Positions 27,363-49,385 of a DNA stretch of 49,658 bases are shown here, one piece after another. The DNA comes from a virus. The notes under the pieces are model-generated. The model ran no database searches and was not told the DNA's origin. It saw only the letters and a program-made list of their open reading frames with translations. Made by a program: the position numbers and the translations under genes. The DNA lies in the IMG/VR virus record IMGVR_UViG_3300026078_000036, positions 1-49,658 of that record; one strand, 5' to 3'. Positions within the stretch are counted from its first letter, which is position 1. Each line of letters opens with the position of its first letter.

Positions 27363-27827
27363 CTAAATAACATTTTGCGATGCGTCCACCGGCGCTGCTG
27401 GCGTAACGGTGGCGAATCCGGTAAGGTAATCGTAGTTTAGTTTTTTGCCCTTCCTGCTGTTTTCGCTGACGGTGAGGCGCTGAATATTGTCGATGTGGTA
27501 CCCTCTTTCCGGGTTTACGCGGTCAATGCTGTAGCTCTCTACGGTTCGGCCCTTGCCTGCGATATAGTCGGACCTGTAGCAGAATTCCGTAAACTCTTCA
27601 ATCGTGAGTGTGCAGGCGTAGCGCGTTTCCGCCAGGGCCTCAGATAGCCCGCGTTTAATGGCCTCCTTTTTACGGCGCTTACAGTTCTGCTGCAAGTTGG
27701 TTAAAGATGCCTGTATGGGATTCTTAGCCCGGTAGCGACGCTTTTCGCATGTTTGACAGATGTTATGCCCTTGCGGCGGCTCTTTGCGCCTACAATCGAC
27801 ACAACGGCGCTTTTTTGGTTTTGCCAT
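27363..27827 (-). CDS. HNH-type protein with N-terminal zinc finger
   Basis: A 154-residue protein with Cys9, Cys12, Cys24 and Cys27 forming a probable zinc finger, a basic helical linker, and a C-terminal HNH-like motif: SIDRVNPERGYHIDN at residues 100-114 and SENSRKG near 121-127. Similar zinc-finger HNH proteins are common in phages, as free-standing endonucleases or packaging-associated nicking enzymes. Catalytic D102 replaces the first His of the motif, as in the D/E-H variants of that superfamily. The stop lies one base from the start of the 55-residue gene. Activity is not established. Confidence 0.72.
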   Translation of the reverse strand: MAKPKKRRCVDCRRKEPPQGHNICQTCEKRRYRAKNPIQASLTNLQQNCKRRKKEAIKRGLSEALAETRYACTLTIEEFTEFCYRSDYIAGKGRTVESYSIDRVNPERGYHIDNIQRLTVSENSRKGKKLNYDYLTGFATVTPAAPVDASQNVI

Positions 27828-27829
27828 AA

Positions 27830-28129
27830 CTAAAGTATTAAAATGTTAAAGTGATTGGCGAGCCACCGGATAGCTTCGATATACGTTAACCGGTGATACT
27901 GCATAACGAAATTTACAGCAGTTCTGCCACCCTGACCGCACCCGAAGCATTTATATACCTGCTTTTCCGGGTTGACGTTAAAGGATGGCGTACGCTCGTT
28001 GTGGAAGGGACAAAGGCCGATATACCCCTTCCCTCTTTTGGTGAGCTTTACAGATGAAGCTATGACACCCAGCAGGTCCGCTTCTGCGGCGGCCGTAATT
28101 TCTTTTACCTTATCTTCAGGGATCAGCAT
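27830..28129 (-). CDS. Isolated CHC2 primase zinc-finger protein
   Basis: A 99-residue protein that is essentially only the zinc-binding N-terminal domain of DnaG-type primases: ligands C40, H43, C61 and C64 in GLCPFHNERTPSF and YKCFGCGQGG, with the usual helical ending (IRWLANHFNI). The polymerase domain is absent from this gene; the zinc-ribbon/TOPRIM protein at 34650 may supply the matching function. The ATG at 28129 lies five bases after the upstream stop; an extension to 28189 would overlap that gene deeply. It would recognise the template site at which primers start. Confidence 0.85.
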   Translation of the reverse strand: MLIPEDKVKEITAAAEADLLGVIASSVKLTKRGKGYIGLCPFHNERTPSFNVNPEKQVYKCFGCGQGGRTAVNFVMQYHRLTYIEAIRWLANHFNILIL

Positions 28130-28134
28130 ATGCT

Positions 28135-28446
28135 TTATTTTAGGTGATTTAATCCGGGTCCGGGCTTGTAGCCATTCGGCGGAATCCATGTTTTGCCGTG
28201 CTTCTTATATATTTTCCAGTGTGTAGCGCAAAAGAATACGTTACGGGCTAAATTAACCCACCGCCTACGCCACCAATAAGAAACGGAACCGTTGTTCCAT
28301 ACGTCCTTAATCCGTGTAAAACGGTCGCACCCTTCAATACAACAGCACCATTTTTTAATAGGCGCATCCAGCTTGTTAAGCTCGTCGGGCGTAAGGTCTT
28401 CCGGGCTAAAGTCAAGGTCAGGGATTGGCGGTTTATTCGGCTTCAT
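28135..28446 (-). CDS. Zinc-ribbon-like small protein
   Basis: A 103-residue protein with a cluster of cysteines (KKWCCCIEGCDRF near residue 32) and a second pair of ligands (FFCATHW near 72), suggesting one zinc site. N-terminus is proline- and aspartate-rich; the C-terminus is basic with GKTWIPPNGYKPGPG. It overlaps the upstream TOPRIM gene by 14 bases and precedes the primase zinc finger, so may join the same replication complex. The ATG at 28446 was chosen from position; function unknown. Confidence 0.6.
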   Translation of the reverse strand: MKPNKPPIPDLDFSPEDLTPDELNKLDAPIKKWCCCIEGCDRFTRIKDVWNNGSVSYWWRRRWVNLARNVFFCATHWKIYKKHGKTWIPPNGYKPGPGLNHLK

Positions 28447-29578
28447 CGTCTTTGAGCTTATCATAAAACGCCTGTAATTTAGTTTGCTCTGCGTCTTCTC
28501 TTTCCAGGGCTGCGTGGTATTTGTCCAGGTCTATTTCGTTGGTCACATTCTCTTCGACTATGCGGGTGAGCGTTTGGGGGTCCAGTGCGTCTACTTCCCA
28601 ACATGTGCGGCCGTGGTGCCGGATATAATCAGCGGCCCGGCTATCAGTTAGTTTTGTTGGATTGGGCGGCAAATTAAACTCTCTTATCTGCTCCTTTGTT
28701 AGGCCGATTGGGACAACCCTGAAAAGATCTTTTTCTTGAAGATACCAACGAATCCGCGCCGCCTCAAACAAATCTGCATAGTCTTCGTTGTCTTCATTGA
28801 GTAGCTTTAAAATCTTTTCGGGCGCATATTCTTCGCGCACAAGATCGTAAATATCGTGCTGTTCTTCATTCCACCATTCCAGTATTCCTTTAACAAAATC
28901 ATCATCGTACATTAGGGACCCCCCTTTCGACAACATAAAAAGCAGTCGTTCGCGTATGTCGCGGACCATATCTAAGCCGCTGGGGTCATGGTCGCCAAAA
29001 TACAAAATGGTCATTTTGCGGCCGGCCTTTATGGCTTCCAGGGCGCGGCGGTAAGACCTGTAAATCGCGCTGCTAGATGTATAACCCTTGTTTACAACTA
29101 ACTGTATATGGTACTTTATAGTAGTCCGCTGAAGGATGCCGGAAAGCGCGTCCTTTTCCGTCCAAAGCTCAACGCAGTTGTTTTGCCCTTCCTGTCTGTT
29201 TATCCTGAAAGTATCTATTGCGTCCTGCATGGCGTGGGTTGCGTCCTTTAGTGAATAGGGGATATATGGCACGCGGCCCCGGTCTTCGACGGCCCCCCAG
29301 TCAATAGCCCCACAGTACCGGCAATCGTCCAGTATGTCGCCTAATTTCTTGTAGGCGCTGTCGTGGTTAACTATCCAGTTGCGGGCGACAAGTTGATAGT
29401 GTAGCTGACGGAGCGTAAGCGTGTAGCCTTCGGTACTGTAGGCGTTCACTATTTGGATTATGCGGGATACGACTACTTCCTTATCTTCTTCCCATATGCG
29501 CTGTGTGCCGTCTTCGTATTTGCACGTTACCCTTACATTGCCGGTAAGTCGCCGGGCCTCGAATTTTTCTTTTGCCAT
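28433..29578 (-). CDS. Spo11 / topoisomerase VI subunit A-like TOPRIM protein
   Basis: A 381-residue protein with the domain order of topoisomerase VI subunit A and Spo11. First, a winged-helix-like region with GYTLTLRQLHYQLVARN, in which Y61 aligns with the DNA-cleaving tyrosine of the family (consensus R-x-[IL]-[FY]-Y). Then a TOPRIM domain with E141 in ELWTEKDALSG and D196/D198 in LYFGDHDPSG, the Mg-binding triad. The C-terminal third is a helical region rich in Glu and Asp. No subunit B partner (GHKL ATPase) is seen in this window. Related stand-alone proteins occur in some phages and mobile elements and their role is unknown. It may cut or nick DNA in replication or recombination. Confidence 0.75.
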   Translation of the reverse strand: MAKEKFEARRLTGNVRVTCKYEDGTQRIWEEDKEVVVSRIIQIVNAYSTEGYTLTLRQLHYQLVARNWIVNHDSAYKKLGDILDDCRYCGAIDWGAVEDRGRVPYIPYSLKDATHAMQDAIDTFRINRQEGQNNCVELWTEKDALSGILQRTTIKYHIQLVVNKGYTSSSAIYRSYRRALEAIKAGRKMTILYFGDHDPSGLDMVRDIRERLLFMLSKGGSLMYDDDFVKGILEWWNEEQHDIYDLVREEYAPEKILKLLNEDNEDYADLFEAARIRWYLQEKDLFRVVPIGLTKEQIREFNLPPNPTKLTDSRAADYIRHHGRTCWEVDALDPQTLTRIVEENVTNEIDLDKYHAALEREDAEQTKLQAFYDKLKDDEAE

Positions 29579-29803
29579 TTAGTCAATAATTAAGTATTTG
29601 TAAAGGGAATCACCCAACCACATGCAGCAGCGCACGTAAGTATTCAAGCTGGGCTTTTCCGTACCGTCGATAACATGTGAAAGAACTATATACGGAACGC
29701 CGATTTGTCCGGCCGCCAGATGCGGCGACAAGTCCTTCGCCGTGATCCGTGCCTTAATTGCTTCGCGTAGCAGGTCGTAACTGCAAACGTCATTTACTAC
29801 CAT
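29579..29803 (-). CDS. XRE-type helix-turn-helix repressor candidate
   Basis: A 74-residue DNA-binding protein of the Cro/CI type: helices at about 10-20, 23-32 and 35-44 with LREAIKARITAKDLSPHLA, then GQIGVPYIVLSHVIDGTEKPSLNTY, a classic XRE pattern. The ATG at 29803 is preferred to a TTG at 29863 because the latter would lie inside the operator, and the promoter at 29820-29851 puts the transcript start about 10 bases before 29803. It sits divergent from the rightward cluster with the operator between, so it likely represses both directions and itself. It is the best candidate reader of the tandem CAAATATATTTG sites found before most transcription units. Confidence 0.75.
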   Translation of the reverse strand: MVVNDVCSYDLLREAIKARITAKDLSPHLAAGQIGVPYIVLSHVIDGTEKPSLNTYVRCCMWLGDSLYKYLIID

Positions 29804-29819
29804 ACACCCTAATTTGAAA

Positions 29820-29911
29820 TAAAGGTAATAATCATACCGGACATTAACAAATATATTTTCCAAAATATTTGCAAATATATTTGGATAGTTTGAGCTTTTG
29901 ATTTATCTTTG
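29820..29911. promoter_or_regulatory. Divergent promoters with operator at the repressor gene
   Basis: Rightward: -33 TTTG at 29880-29883, 20-bp spacer, -7 TATCTTTG at 29904-29911, ATG 29932. Leftward: -33 as CAAA at 29848-29851, 20-bp spacer, -7 as TAAAGGTA (minus strand TACCTTTA) at 29820-29827, ATG 29803. The operator at 29861-29883 (tandem CAAATATATTTG with one base missing in the first copy) overlaps the rightward -33 and lies just upstream of the leftward -33. A TTGAGCTTT motif sits in the rightward spacer at 29890-29898. The layout matches a genetic switch. Confidence 0.75.
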
Positions 29912-29931: not shown

Positions 29932-30687
29932 ATGATACACGTAAAAAGATCGAATCCGCATTCAGGCTACCGGGGCATTCAGCCTACATTTGTTGCAGGC
30001 TGCCAGGAAGTAACAAACCCTGAGATCGCGCCAGTAAAACTTCAGTTCGTTACCCGTGAGAGGTTCAACCACGCATACCAGCAAGACCCGGCGACGTGTT
30101 GCCCTTCCTGCGCTCTTTATGCAAAAGTAGTAACCGTTGCGCGTGTTGGTGATGAACTTTTTTACAATACGCTCATGTCGAACGCAGAAGGCACGCTGGA
30201 AGGTGTTTTGTATCACCATACTAAAGGATTGCTTACTATCTTTTTGGCACACACCGCCGAAGCTGCCGACCGCATGTTTTCTTTTTACGAAGAGATCAAC
30301 GCTTTGTCTTACGATCAACTGGTCGAAAGATACCCGCATACATATATCAGCCGATACGATAAAAAAGAATCGGTTGTCCTTTCCAGGGACGGAAGTAGGA
30401 TACGAGATAAGGCCCGCAGTGCTAACCGACTTGGGAAGGGTGCGTTTGCAGAAAAGATGCAAGACGCCGCGCGTCAGCACTACATCGACGCAACGCTTAA
30501 ATTAGCATTCCGCCTGCGTCAAAAAGGCGTTGAAATAGGCGACAATGTAACCGTTTCAAGTGAACGCATAGACGGGGCCGGTAATATTGCCATACAAATA
30601 AAATCAGATAAAGGCGTCGTGAGGGCCTGGACGATCATAGCTTCCGGGCCTGTAGTAGCACCGCACTACCGTTACCTTATCAAATAA
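29932..30687 (+). CDS. Hypothetical protein, first gene of rightward cluster
   Basis: A 251-residue protein of unknown function, the first gene behind the rightward promoter divergent from the repressor, hence a likely early gene. It carries a Cys-rich segment (DPATCCPSCALYAKV near residue 52), a helical centre with SFYEEINALSYDQLVERYP, and a basic helical stretch RDKARSANRLGKGAFAEKM. Charge is near neutral; no membrane span. Such early genes often act against host functions, but nothing in the sequence shows this directly. Confidence 0.65.
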   Translation: MIHVKRSNPHSGYRGIQPTFVAGCQEVTNPEIAPVKLQFVTRERFNHAYQQDPATCCPSCALYAKVVTVARVGDELFYNTLMSNAEGTLEGVLYHHTKGLLTIFLAHTAEAADRMFSFYEEINALSYDQLVERYPHTYISRYDKKESVVLSRDGSRIRDKARSANRLGKGAFAEKMQDAARQHYIDATLKLAFRLRQKGVEIGDNVTVSSERIDGAGNIAIQIKSDKGVVRAWTIIASGPVVAPHYRYLIK

Positions 30688-33876: not shown

Positions 33877-33928
33877 TAAAGATACGTTGAGCTTTTGACG
33901 TTTCCAAATATATTTGCAAATATATTTG
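33877..33928 (-). promoter_or_regulatory. Promoter with perfect tandem operator
   Basis: Leftward promoter: -33 CAAA (plus strand) at 33905-33908, 20-bp spacer, -7 TAAAGATA (minus strand TATCTTTA) at 33877-33884. The operator at 33905-33928 is two perfect copies of CAAATATATTTG. TTGAGCTTTT lies in the spacer at 33887-33896. It drives the genes at 33845 and below. Confidence 0.8.
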
Positions 33929-33930
33929 AA

Positions 33931-34653
33931 TTATTTAGGCACCAGGTCGCTTTCTTCTTCGGTATAGTTGCGGCCATTGTCGGGTATATAGATTTGCACC
34001 TGGGCTTTTGTCTTCTGAAGATTATCGGCCTCGTAATATCCGGTATGCTTCGCCAGCATATCCAGGGCGGCGTCCTTACTGTGTAGTTGGAATTCGATAC
34101 CGTGGCGACCCTGCTTTAACGATTTGATCAGGTGACCGTTACGGCCCTTTAATAGACGTTCAAAGCTCAAATCCTGAACGGTCAATTTCTTTGCATCTTC
34201 CCTGCTCATACCTCCCCGGACAAGTTCGTCCCGGACCTGTTCGGGCGTCTTTAACTGGGCAAGCTGGGCCGCATCACTAAAGGCGATAATCATAAGCTCG
34301 TTTGTAATACGGTCGTGAATGTCCTTACGCTCTTCTTTAATCTCTGCCTTACGCTGTTCCAGGTAGGCGGAAACGCGGGGCTTCTTTAAAAGCTCATTAG
34401 CATAGGATGACGGATTCTTATTATCGAATCCGGCTTCCCTTACTGCTTCGGCCTTATTGAAATGGAAAAGATAGTTTTCGATAAACGATATTTCGGCGTC
34501 TGTAATGTCTTCGGCAGGCACTTTGCCGCCTTTGCGCAATTTATCGGGGTTGCCCGGTGCCGGTTTGCGCTTTACTTTTACCTGAAGTTTGCCGGGCTTT
34601 CCTGTCACTTTGTTGCCCTGACTATCGGAAAACCCCTTTTTCGCTTTAGTCAT
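33931..34653 (-). CDS. terS: Terminase small subunit
   Basis: A 240-residue protein with a basic N-terminal tail and the terminase-2-type helix-turn-helix region (ITDAEISFIENYLFHFNKAEAVREAGF, about residues 55-80, then SSYANELLKKPRVSAYLEQ) that recognises phage DNA. The ATG at 34653 overlaps the stop of the upstream gene (ATGA). It lies three bases downstream of the tandem operator and 8.4 kb away from terL, with the early rightward cluster, the repressor and replication genes between. Such a distance is unusual. The C-terminal part carries an oligomerisation helix and an acidic tail. Confidence 0.82.
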   Translation of the reverse strand: MTKAKKGFSDSQGNKVTGKPGKLQVKVKRKPAPGNPDKLRKGGKVPAEDITDAEISFIENYLFHFNKAEAVREAGFDNKNPSSYANELLKKPRVSAYLEQRKAEIKEERKDIHDRITNELMIIAFSDAAQLAQLKTPEQVRDELVRGGMSREDAKKLTVQDLSFERLLKGRNGHLIKSLKQGRHGIEFQLHSKDAALDMLAKHTGYYEADNLQKTKAQVQIYIPDNGRNYTEEESDLVPK

Positions 34654-35996
34654 AATGGTGCAATTGTTCCACTGCAAATTTGCATCTTTTCCAGCAGATA
34701 GGCGACCCCGTCATTTTCCCGGATCATTTTTTCCAGGCTCGCCTTAAGGCGCTCGTCTTCGCAATACACCTTTGGGCCATTACTGAAGTCTGTATCGACC
34801 TGGAACGGGACTTCGCCCATTGATCGACGCTTATCGATTAGCGCCTTATTTTGGGCGGCTGGCGTTGGCGGCGGGGTAACCTTCGGCATAACCGCTGGCG
34901 CGTCGGTGCCGGGTAGCCGGAAGGCGGAGAAATTAGGTTTATCGTAACGGGGTGGTGGCGGTTGTAGGATCAGAAAGTCGCCCAAATCTGAACCGTCGTC
35001 AAGTTCTGGCGCTGGATCAAAAAAAGACACGCGGCAACCAATGGCACGCAGGCGAACGGCGGCACTTTCATAATCTCCCACGATTTCGCCTTCAGGATGC
35101 GTGCGGCGGACGAGCTTTTGCATCTGCTCGCCCCTCACTGTTATGGTCGCCATCACCTCTTTTTTTCGCATCGGCAGCACGCCCCAGGTGGCACGTGCTG
35201 CAAACGAGAAGTCGGGACATAATACCACTTCACGGCCTCGCAATGGCTCTATTTTGTCGCGAACCAATCCTTCAGAGCCGGACGAGGCCATCCATACGAC
35301 GGGGCGACCCTGCCAAAACGGCAAATATCCTGACGCAATAACGGCAGTTTTTTCACTCTCTACCAGAGCGATTAACGCATCTGCCGGAGCATCCCAAAGT
35401 TGATGCAGACCAAACAGGCATGTACTATATCCCTCCTCTATGGTGAATAAGCGTTTGGGCTGCGTCTTCTCGAAAGGCTCACCGCCTCCAGGCTTCAGGC
35501 GCTTGCCATTGGCACCGTAAAAGATGCGCTGGGCCGTACGAGGCCGCAGGCGTTCGTCTATTTGCCAAAACGCTGTTCCGCCTCCTTTTGTAGTTCCTAC
35601 GTAAAACAGGAACACTAAGCGCATAGCTTCAGTAGCTCCAAACAGGCCGATAAGGTATTGCACCAACACGTTACTATCATAACCGGTAAGCGTCGCCTTA
35701 ACGATGGCCTTATCGACCGGATTGATTACTGCCTTCGGCGGTTCGTGGCGCTTATAATCCTTTGAGCTTTTACGCTCCGCACTGTGCGCCTGTTCCATAT
35801 CCTCGAAGGGATGAAGGAAATATCCGCAGTGGTCCTGCCGATCACATCGGCCGTATTCTTCCGGCAGATACTCTTTATCGTTAAAGTTGTAGTAACGCAC
35901 AAACCGGCGCTTTCTACAGGCCGGACAGATATGCTTTTTCGCTGCGTGGCCTTGTACGGACTTATCCAGTGCAACGCCGTTAATGAGTGTACCCAT
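34650..35996 (-). CDS. DUF6371-like zinc-ribbon/TOPRIM primase-like protein
   Basis: A 448-residue protein starting with a zinc ribbon: C24, C27, C51 and C57 in HICPACRKRRFVRYYNF and YGRCDRQDHCGYF, the layout of DUF6371 proteins in Bacteroidota phages and mobile elements. Downstream lies a TOPRIM-type core: ALVESEKTAVIASG with E212/E214 near residue 209 and VVLCPDFSF with D261. This would give a primase-related catalytic core. The C-terminal third is proline-rich and probably disordered. It lies downstream of a strongly structured noncoding region, as expected of a replication initiator next to an origin. Primase activity is inferred. Confidence 0.7.
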   Translation of the reverse strand: MGTLINGVALDKSVQGHAAKKHICPACRKRRFVRYYNFNDKEYLPEEYGRCDRQDHCGYFLHPFEDMEQAHSAERKSSKDYKRHEPPKAVINPVDKAIVKATLTGYDSNVLVQYLIGLFGATEAMRLVFLFYVGTTKGGGTAFWQIDERLRPRTAQRIFYGANGKRLKPGGGEPFEKTQPKRLFTIEEGYSTCLFGLHQLWDAPADALIALVESEKTAVIASGYLPFWQGRPVVWMASSGSEGLVRDKIEPLRGREVVLCPDFSFAARATWGVLPMRKKEVMATITVRGEQMQKLVRRTHPEGEIVGDYESAAVRLRAIGCRVSFFDPAPELDDGSDLGDFLILQPPPPRYDKPNFSAFRLPGTDAPAVMPKVTPPPTPAAQNKALIDKRRSMGEVPFQVDTDFSNGPKVYCEDERLKASLEKMIRENDGVAYLLEKMQICSGTIAPL

Positions 35997-36943: not shown

Positions 36944-36995
36944 CAAAGATACGTTGAGCTTTTGGATTTTCCAAATATATTTGCAAATATATTTG
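36944..36995 (-). promoter_or_regulatory. Promoter with perfect tandem operator
   Basis: Leftward: -33 CAAA at 36972-36975, 20-bp spacer, -7 CAAAGATA (minus strand TATCTTTG) at 36944-36951, ATG 36922. The operator at 36972-36995 is two perfect CAAATATATTTG copies flanked by symmetric TTTC/GAAA, so this is the most symmetrical site in the window. TTGAGCTTTT lies in the spacer at 36954-36963. Confidence 0.85.
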
Positions 36996-42406: not shown

Positions 42407-42458
42407 CAAATGTAAGTTGAGCTTTTGAATTATCCAAATATATTTGCAAATTTATTTG
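42407..42458 (-). promoter_or_regulatory. Promoter with tandem operator for the glycosyltransferase cluster
   Basis: Leftward: -33 CAAA at 42435-42438, 20-bp spacer, -7 CAAATGTA (minus strand TACATTTG) at 42407-42414, ATG 42383. Operator at 42435-42458: CAAATATATTTG then CAAATTTATTTG. The deviating base provides the stop codon of the upstream ASCH gene. TTGAGCTTTT lies in the spacer at 42417-42426. Confidence 0.82.
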
Positions 42459-49333: not shown

Positions 49334-49385
49334 CAAAGATACTTTGAGCTTTTGGATTTTCCAAATATATTTGCAAATATTTTGG
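49334..49385 (-). promoter_or_regulatory. Promoter with tandem operator (exonuclease transcript)
   Basis: Leftward: -33 CAAA at 49362-49365, 20-bp spacer, -7 CAAAGATA (minus strand TATCTTTG) at 49334-49341. Operator at 49362-49384: CAAATATATTTG and CAAATATTTTG (one base short). TTGAGCTTTT lies in the spacer at 49344-49353. It follows the ssb terminator. Confidence 0.82.

Follow-up and report, generated by a model that had tools for sequence, protein, structure and literature searches.

Topo VI, an A2B2 heterotetramer whose B subunit carries a GHKL ATPase, cleaves DNA in trans between protomers. Mini-A, a viral family that resembles its A subunit, reportedly goes back to a founding paper by Takahashi et al. 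2020. Reviews describe the family as type IIB and as belonging to mobile elements (PMC8185306), and as an ancient homologue of Topo VI-A and Spo11 in viruses (PMC11302465), and the legend of a review figure gives Pseudomonas phage NP1 as an example (PMC7614492). The open-licence literature that we searched contains reviews naming Mini-A and yielded no biochemical study of any member.

In Topo VI, the state of the B-subunit ATPase is described as coupled to cleavage by the A subunit (PMC13040014). According to the same source, a salt bridge between R102 and E342 restrains Y106 of M. mazei Top6, and this tyrosine swings in once the B subunits close on ATP. Spo11 is described with B-like partners (PMC11302465, PMC13040014). 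The nuclease MksG is reported to cut DNA without a tyrosine in the equivalent domain (PMC10123090).

The locus and its family

The stretch of DNA studied here (the window) is one entire virus record of 49,658 bases. It contains the following gene.

28433-29578, minus strand: Mini-A coding sequence, 381 aa (open reading frame and homology)

An earlier note on this DNA placed an open reading frame here without stating its strand. The frame is intact and lies on the minus strand, running from an ATG at 29578 to a TAA at 28433, and the plus-strand frame over the same positions has many stops. Shuffling the mononucleotides of the window 40 times gave a longest stop-to-stop frame of 237 aa (mean 171). 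That the interval is a gene is settled by homology to PHROG 6247 and to phage relatives, and the shuffles and the homology together rule out a chance frame.

The protein matches PHROG 6247, "DNA topoisomerase", with an E-value of 2.2e-69. Its Pfam scores were all below threshold, among them JetD_C (E 0.036) and TOP6A-Spo11_Toprim (E 0.078), and NCBIfam had no match. Searches with tblastn found relatives in 67 of 50,697 phage records and in 17 of 72,556 plasmid records. The best annotated relatives in the phage records belong to Flavobacterium phages (37.6%). Given these relatives, and promoters in the window that resemble the Bacteroidota type, the host is likely a member of Bacteroidota. Used alone as a query, the protein retrieved nothing from IMG/VR or from genomes, but alignment-based searches did find relatives. 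A PDB sequence search with the single sequence and two profiles gave no relative, the weak matches listed being unrelated, and no phage matched the first 25 kb of the window by megablast.

The record of phage NP1 has one matching place (34.9% identity, E 2e-24, tblastn), presumably the gene meant by the review legend. The window protein shares with NP1 homology over most of its length (about 35%), predicted domains, catalytic residues, a viral origin and the lack of a B subunit. It differs in an N-terminal beta hairpin and in a 69-residue insertion in the Toprim domain, a feature of a minority of relatives. With homology to NP1, the predicted winged-helix and Toprim fold in one short polypeptide, the catalytic residues, the absence of Topo VI-B and encoding by a virus all found, the protein almost certainly belongs to Mini-A. 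The family is already known and little studied, and the window protein adds another member.

Predicted fold, conserved residues and the missing B subunit

AlphaFold2, given a 76-sequence alignment, predicts a winged helix and a Toprim domain (pLDDT 94.7). The predicted domains and conserved motifs are as follows.

29276-29482, minus strand: winged-helix domain, about residues 33-101 (model of residues 1-126 and structural matches)
28535-29182, minus strand: Toprim domain, about residues 133-348, including an insertion (structural alignment)
28724-28930, minus strand: the 69-residue Toprim insertion, residues 217-285 (at least 40 residues in 18 of 177 sequences, window protein included)
29396-29398, minus strand: codon of Tyr61, the putative nucleophile (177/177; aligns with the tyrosine of Top6A LRELYY in global profile mode only)
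29156-29158, minus strand: codon of Glu141 in the Toprim domain (177/177)
28985-28993, minus strand: codons of Asp196-His197-Asp198, the Toprim DxD (both Asp in 176/177, a partly selected count)
28589-28597, minus strand: codons of the E328-x-D330 motif (E-L/V-D in 175/177 with 2 gaps, also partly selected)

The two top Foldseek matches of the full model are Topo VI-A chains (E 1.6e-3 and 2.9e-3). Their rmsd of 18-19 probably reflects a different orientation of the domains in the model. Neither the full model nor residues 1-126 had a Foldseek match with E < 0.001, and the viral structure library gave none at this level either. The structure prediction and alignment that the earlier note had proposed as a check do place the Toprim half close to Topo VI-A and Spo11. 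By VIA-align, this half resembles Topo VI-A 1d3y (Z 12.5, rmsd 4.9, 152 residues), M. mazei Top6 9o0g (Z 12.3, rmsd 3.6, 150 residues), 2zbk (Z 11.4, rmsd 4.5, 151 residues), MksG 8b7f (Z 11.3, rmsd 3.7, 132 residues) and Spo11 8urq (Z 10.2, rmsd 2.7, 131 residues). Another Toprim family, such as DnaG, is less likely, with Z of 8.0 and below and the invariant tyrosine left unexplained.

Because the Toprim half filled the list of structural matches, residues 1-126 were modelled separately. They fold as a winged helix (pLDDT 93.1), which excludes one of the two outcomes that the earlier note had named as fatal to its reading, a fold without this domain. The other, Tyr61 lying away from the TOPRIM site, would not be decisive in a monomer, given the trans cleavage by Topo VI. 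Among the chains aligned, Topo VI-A 1d3y_B scores highest (Z 7.6, rmsd 2.4, 70 residues), although unrelated winged helices come close (Z 6.4), and Foldseek by itself ranked 1d3y_B seventh (E 1.6).

When the profile is aligned globally with 53 archaeal Top6A sequences, LTLRQLHY falls on STLRELYY and DHDP on DGDP, with modest statistics (E 4e-4 in one comparison, probability 14.7%). In local mode, only the Toprim part aligns. The resemblance to Topo VI-A consists of the Toprim domain, the winged helix, the R-x-x-x-Y motif and the Toprim triad, at very low sequence similarity, and both its profile and its structure statistics are modest.

Conservation was assessed in an alignment of 177 sequences, comprising the window protein and one open reading frame from each of 176 loci (16 phage regions, the best 80 of 580 relatives in IMG/VR and the best 80 of 151 in genomes). 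Arg57, Gln58, Tyr61, Asn71, Asp99, Arg102, Glu141 and Lys142 are identical in all 177. The single sequence that lacks Asp196 and Asp198 is a short open reading frame of 167 aa. The DxD and E-x-D counts are partly selected, since some loci were found with patterns containing those motifs. None of the patterns used to search IMG/VR or genomes contained Tyr61 or Glu141. The earlier note had named Tyr61, Glu141, Asp196 and Asp198 as catalytic candidates, and a script reads Y, E, D and D at these positions.

The public annotation of gp26 in Salmonella phage SPN19 (L006:6010-6897) begins 129 bases late, at L006:6139. As annotated, the protein lacks the start of the winged helix and Tyr61; the full open reading frame has Tyr61.

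Neither Topo-VIb_trans (PF09239) nor HATPase_c_3 (PF13589) was detected in the 49,658-base record (0/1 for each), and control archaea were positive for both. What the earlier note had said of the neighbourhood, that it holds no TopoVI-B ATPase, is hence true of the entire record. PF09239 was likewise absent from all of 50 Mini-A-bearing records, which represent 50 of 96 virus or phage loci and many of which may be fragments, and HATPase_c_3 had one sub-threshold match in these 50. With a Toprim fold, a tyrosine-bearing winged helix, invariant residues and no B subunit, the protein agrees with the earlier description of a stand-alone Spo11/TopoVI-A-like protein.

Four of 60 archaeal genomes (G077, G087, G097 and G107) encode a second, much more divergent Toprim of the Top6A type (E about 1e-24 to 1e-26, open frames of 428-444 aa), which is possibly Topo VIII-like.

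Genomic setting in the window and in Chi-like phages

The following genes and elements surround the Mini-A gene.

29579-29803, minus strand: 74-aa open reading frame heading the operon; by eye it looks like a small HTH regulator, with no family match
28135-28464, minus strand: downstream open reading frame overlapping Mini-A by 32 bases
27830-28189, minus strand: stand-alone DnaG-type zinc ribbon (PF01807, E 1.3e-30)
27363-27827, minus strand: endonuclease VII/HNH-like protein (phrog_1035, E 2.4e-10)
29848-29883, no strand: double palindromic element, with the Mini-A operon on one side and the divergent gene at 29932 on the other
1030-1053, 33905-33928, 36972-36995, 42435-42458 and 49362-49385: further copies of the palindrome

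The stop codon of the 74-aa frame abuts the ATG of Mini-A. The zinc ribbon, two genes past Mini-A, has 119 aa and lacks a primase core. A protein with DUF6371 and a zinc ribbon, encoded elsewhere in the window (34650-35996), may act in replication as a primase-like protein. Genes for RecT and an exonuclease VIII-like protein are also present in the phage.

The palindrome is 24 bp long and near-perfect, with the consensus CAAATATATTTGCAAATATATTTG. It occurs at six places in the window, where 100 shuffles gave an expectation of 0, and was absent from the other 235 loci searched. The copies lie 44-59 bases upstream of six leftward starts, namely those of RecT, the head frame of the Mini-A operon and four others, and most are followed by a promoter-like layout of TTTG-spacer-TAnnTTTG. 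The palindrome resembles an operator that serves a phage regulon. Its presence at both promoters is suggestive of a regulatory tie between Mini-A and RecT.

Most neighbours of the window gene are absent beside its relatives. Across loci, helicases, PolA, RecE-like exonuclease, RusA-like proteins, methylases and integrases recur, a tally that has no base-rate control. A recurrent neighbour cluster at 22 loci was dropped, as it consisted of antisense frames over Mini-A.

Chi-like phages have one locus with three alleles. It holds Mini-A in SPN19, BP12C and 118970_sal1 (in the last at L241:1737-2624), an 84-aa gene of phrog_9722 in phage Chi (L237:1736-1990), and nothing in FSL SP-088, where the ThyX-like gene comes directly next (L238:1736). 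The shared blocks on either side of the site are 893 bases apart in carriers and 14 apart in FSL SP-088, where it is empty. When the segment of SPN19 from gp25 to the ThyX-like gene was used as query, 116 phage records matched, only 6 of them over at least 80% of its length; among the matches listed, mostly both flanks were present and the middle was absent. With the Chi-type query, 70 of 102 records held at least 80%. The carriers seen among Chi-like phages are SPN19, 118970_sal1 and BP12C, and the pairs among these three give dN/dS values of 0.033, 0.026 and 0.022 for Mini-A (dS near 1 for two), which argues against decay.

Mini-A in Chi-like phages is thus an accessory one-gene cassette under strong purifying selection. 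Most of these phages lack it at an otherwise conserved locus, which disfavours the idea that lytic replication, or its start, depends on Mini-A in this group. By extension, Mini-A may be dispensable in the window phage as well.

Proposed mechanism and competing explanations

The window protein is most likely a homodimeric, tyrosine-dependent DNA-cleaving enzyme. We consider it moderately probable that Mini-A is an enzyme of the Topo VI-A/Spo11 type, with Tyr61 as the nucleophile in the winged helix, a metal-binding Toprim domain and no Topo VI-B partner. The tyrosine chemistry as such appears fairly probable. Mini-A would dimerise through the Toprim domains and bend the DNA, and Tyr61 would attack each strand in trans. 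The expected product would be a double-strand break with 5′-phosphotyrosyl ends, made without ATP, analogous to the tyrosine-linked break of Spo11. Mini-A retains an arginine four residues ahead of the tyrosine (Arg57, 177/177) and an E-x-D past the Toprim domain (175/177, partly selected as above), and these may form a clasp of the Top6 type. Most speculatively, the breaks might serve recombination of phage DNA as an accessory function, a role that we regard as tentative; in the window, the palindrome is common to the Mini-A operon and RecT.

The main rival is a metal-dependent Toprim nuclease of the JetD/MksG type, because MksG cuts DNA without such a tyrosine. Under this explanation, the Toprim domain and the E-x-D would hydrolyse DNA and Tyr61 would be merely structural. 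On the Toprim half, MksG and Topo VI-A score similarly (Z 11.3 and 12.5), there are weak profile matches to JetD and DUF2399, and the invariant E-x-D resembles a conserved Glu pair proposed for JetD, if the two correspond. A profile comparison with JetD (probability 2.5%) was not counted, one of its four loci having contributed an SMC-like frame instead of JetD. However, Tyr61 and Arg57 are invariant, which argues against a metal-nuclease mechanism, whereas MksG, as described in PMC10123090, lacks a catalytic N-terminal tyrosine. JetD and MksG belong to the Wadjet and MksBEFG systems, and in the window proteins covered by Pfam or PHROG scans, no condensin-like or SMC-type partner of the JetABC/MksBEF kind was found. 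We regard this nuclease as unlikely.

Two further explanations appear improbable. The exact presence, absence or replacement of one gene at the Chi-like locus, and the absence of most neighbours of the window gene beside its relatives, would fit a selfish, homing-like cassette that cleaves empty alleles and spreads by being copied into them. Against this, the enzyme has no known site specificity, many phage genes of an ordinary kind undergo similar exchange, and the low dN/dS suggests that a function has been kept, although homing genes can be conserved too. Alternatively, Mini-A could relax DNA without ATP and so aid replication or packaging topologically, in the style of one reported Topo VIII: weak ATP-independent relaxation is reported for the enzyme of Microscilla marina (PMC7614492), and Mini-A adjoins replication or packaging genes in several phages. 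Yet type II enzymes normally need an ATPase gate for strand passage, and this gate was found neither in the window nor in the 50 records, and most Chi-like phages manage without Mini-A. With no B subunit, ATP-driven strand passage is not expected of Mini-A.

Returning to the tyrosine-dependent enzyme, a stronger version of it would make Mini-A an autonomous Spo11 cassette, independent of a B subunit and of ATP, which phages gain and lose and whose tyrosine-linked double-strand breaks in phage DNA drive recombination, here under shared control with RecT, or its own spread into empty alleles. We consider this version unlikely; if true, Mini-A would represent a meiotic-type enzyme for double-strand breaks in minimal natural form. 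The present analysis adds to the description of the family a conservation test, a separate test of the winged helix, a wider absence of Topo VI-B and, for Chi-like phages, a polymorphism in which this one gene is present or absent. Given that Mini-A has all the catalytic residues and no B subunit, it would show how cleavage is controlled in the absence of B, and Chi-like phages that are near-identical apart from carrying or lacking the gene lend themselves to testing its function genetically.
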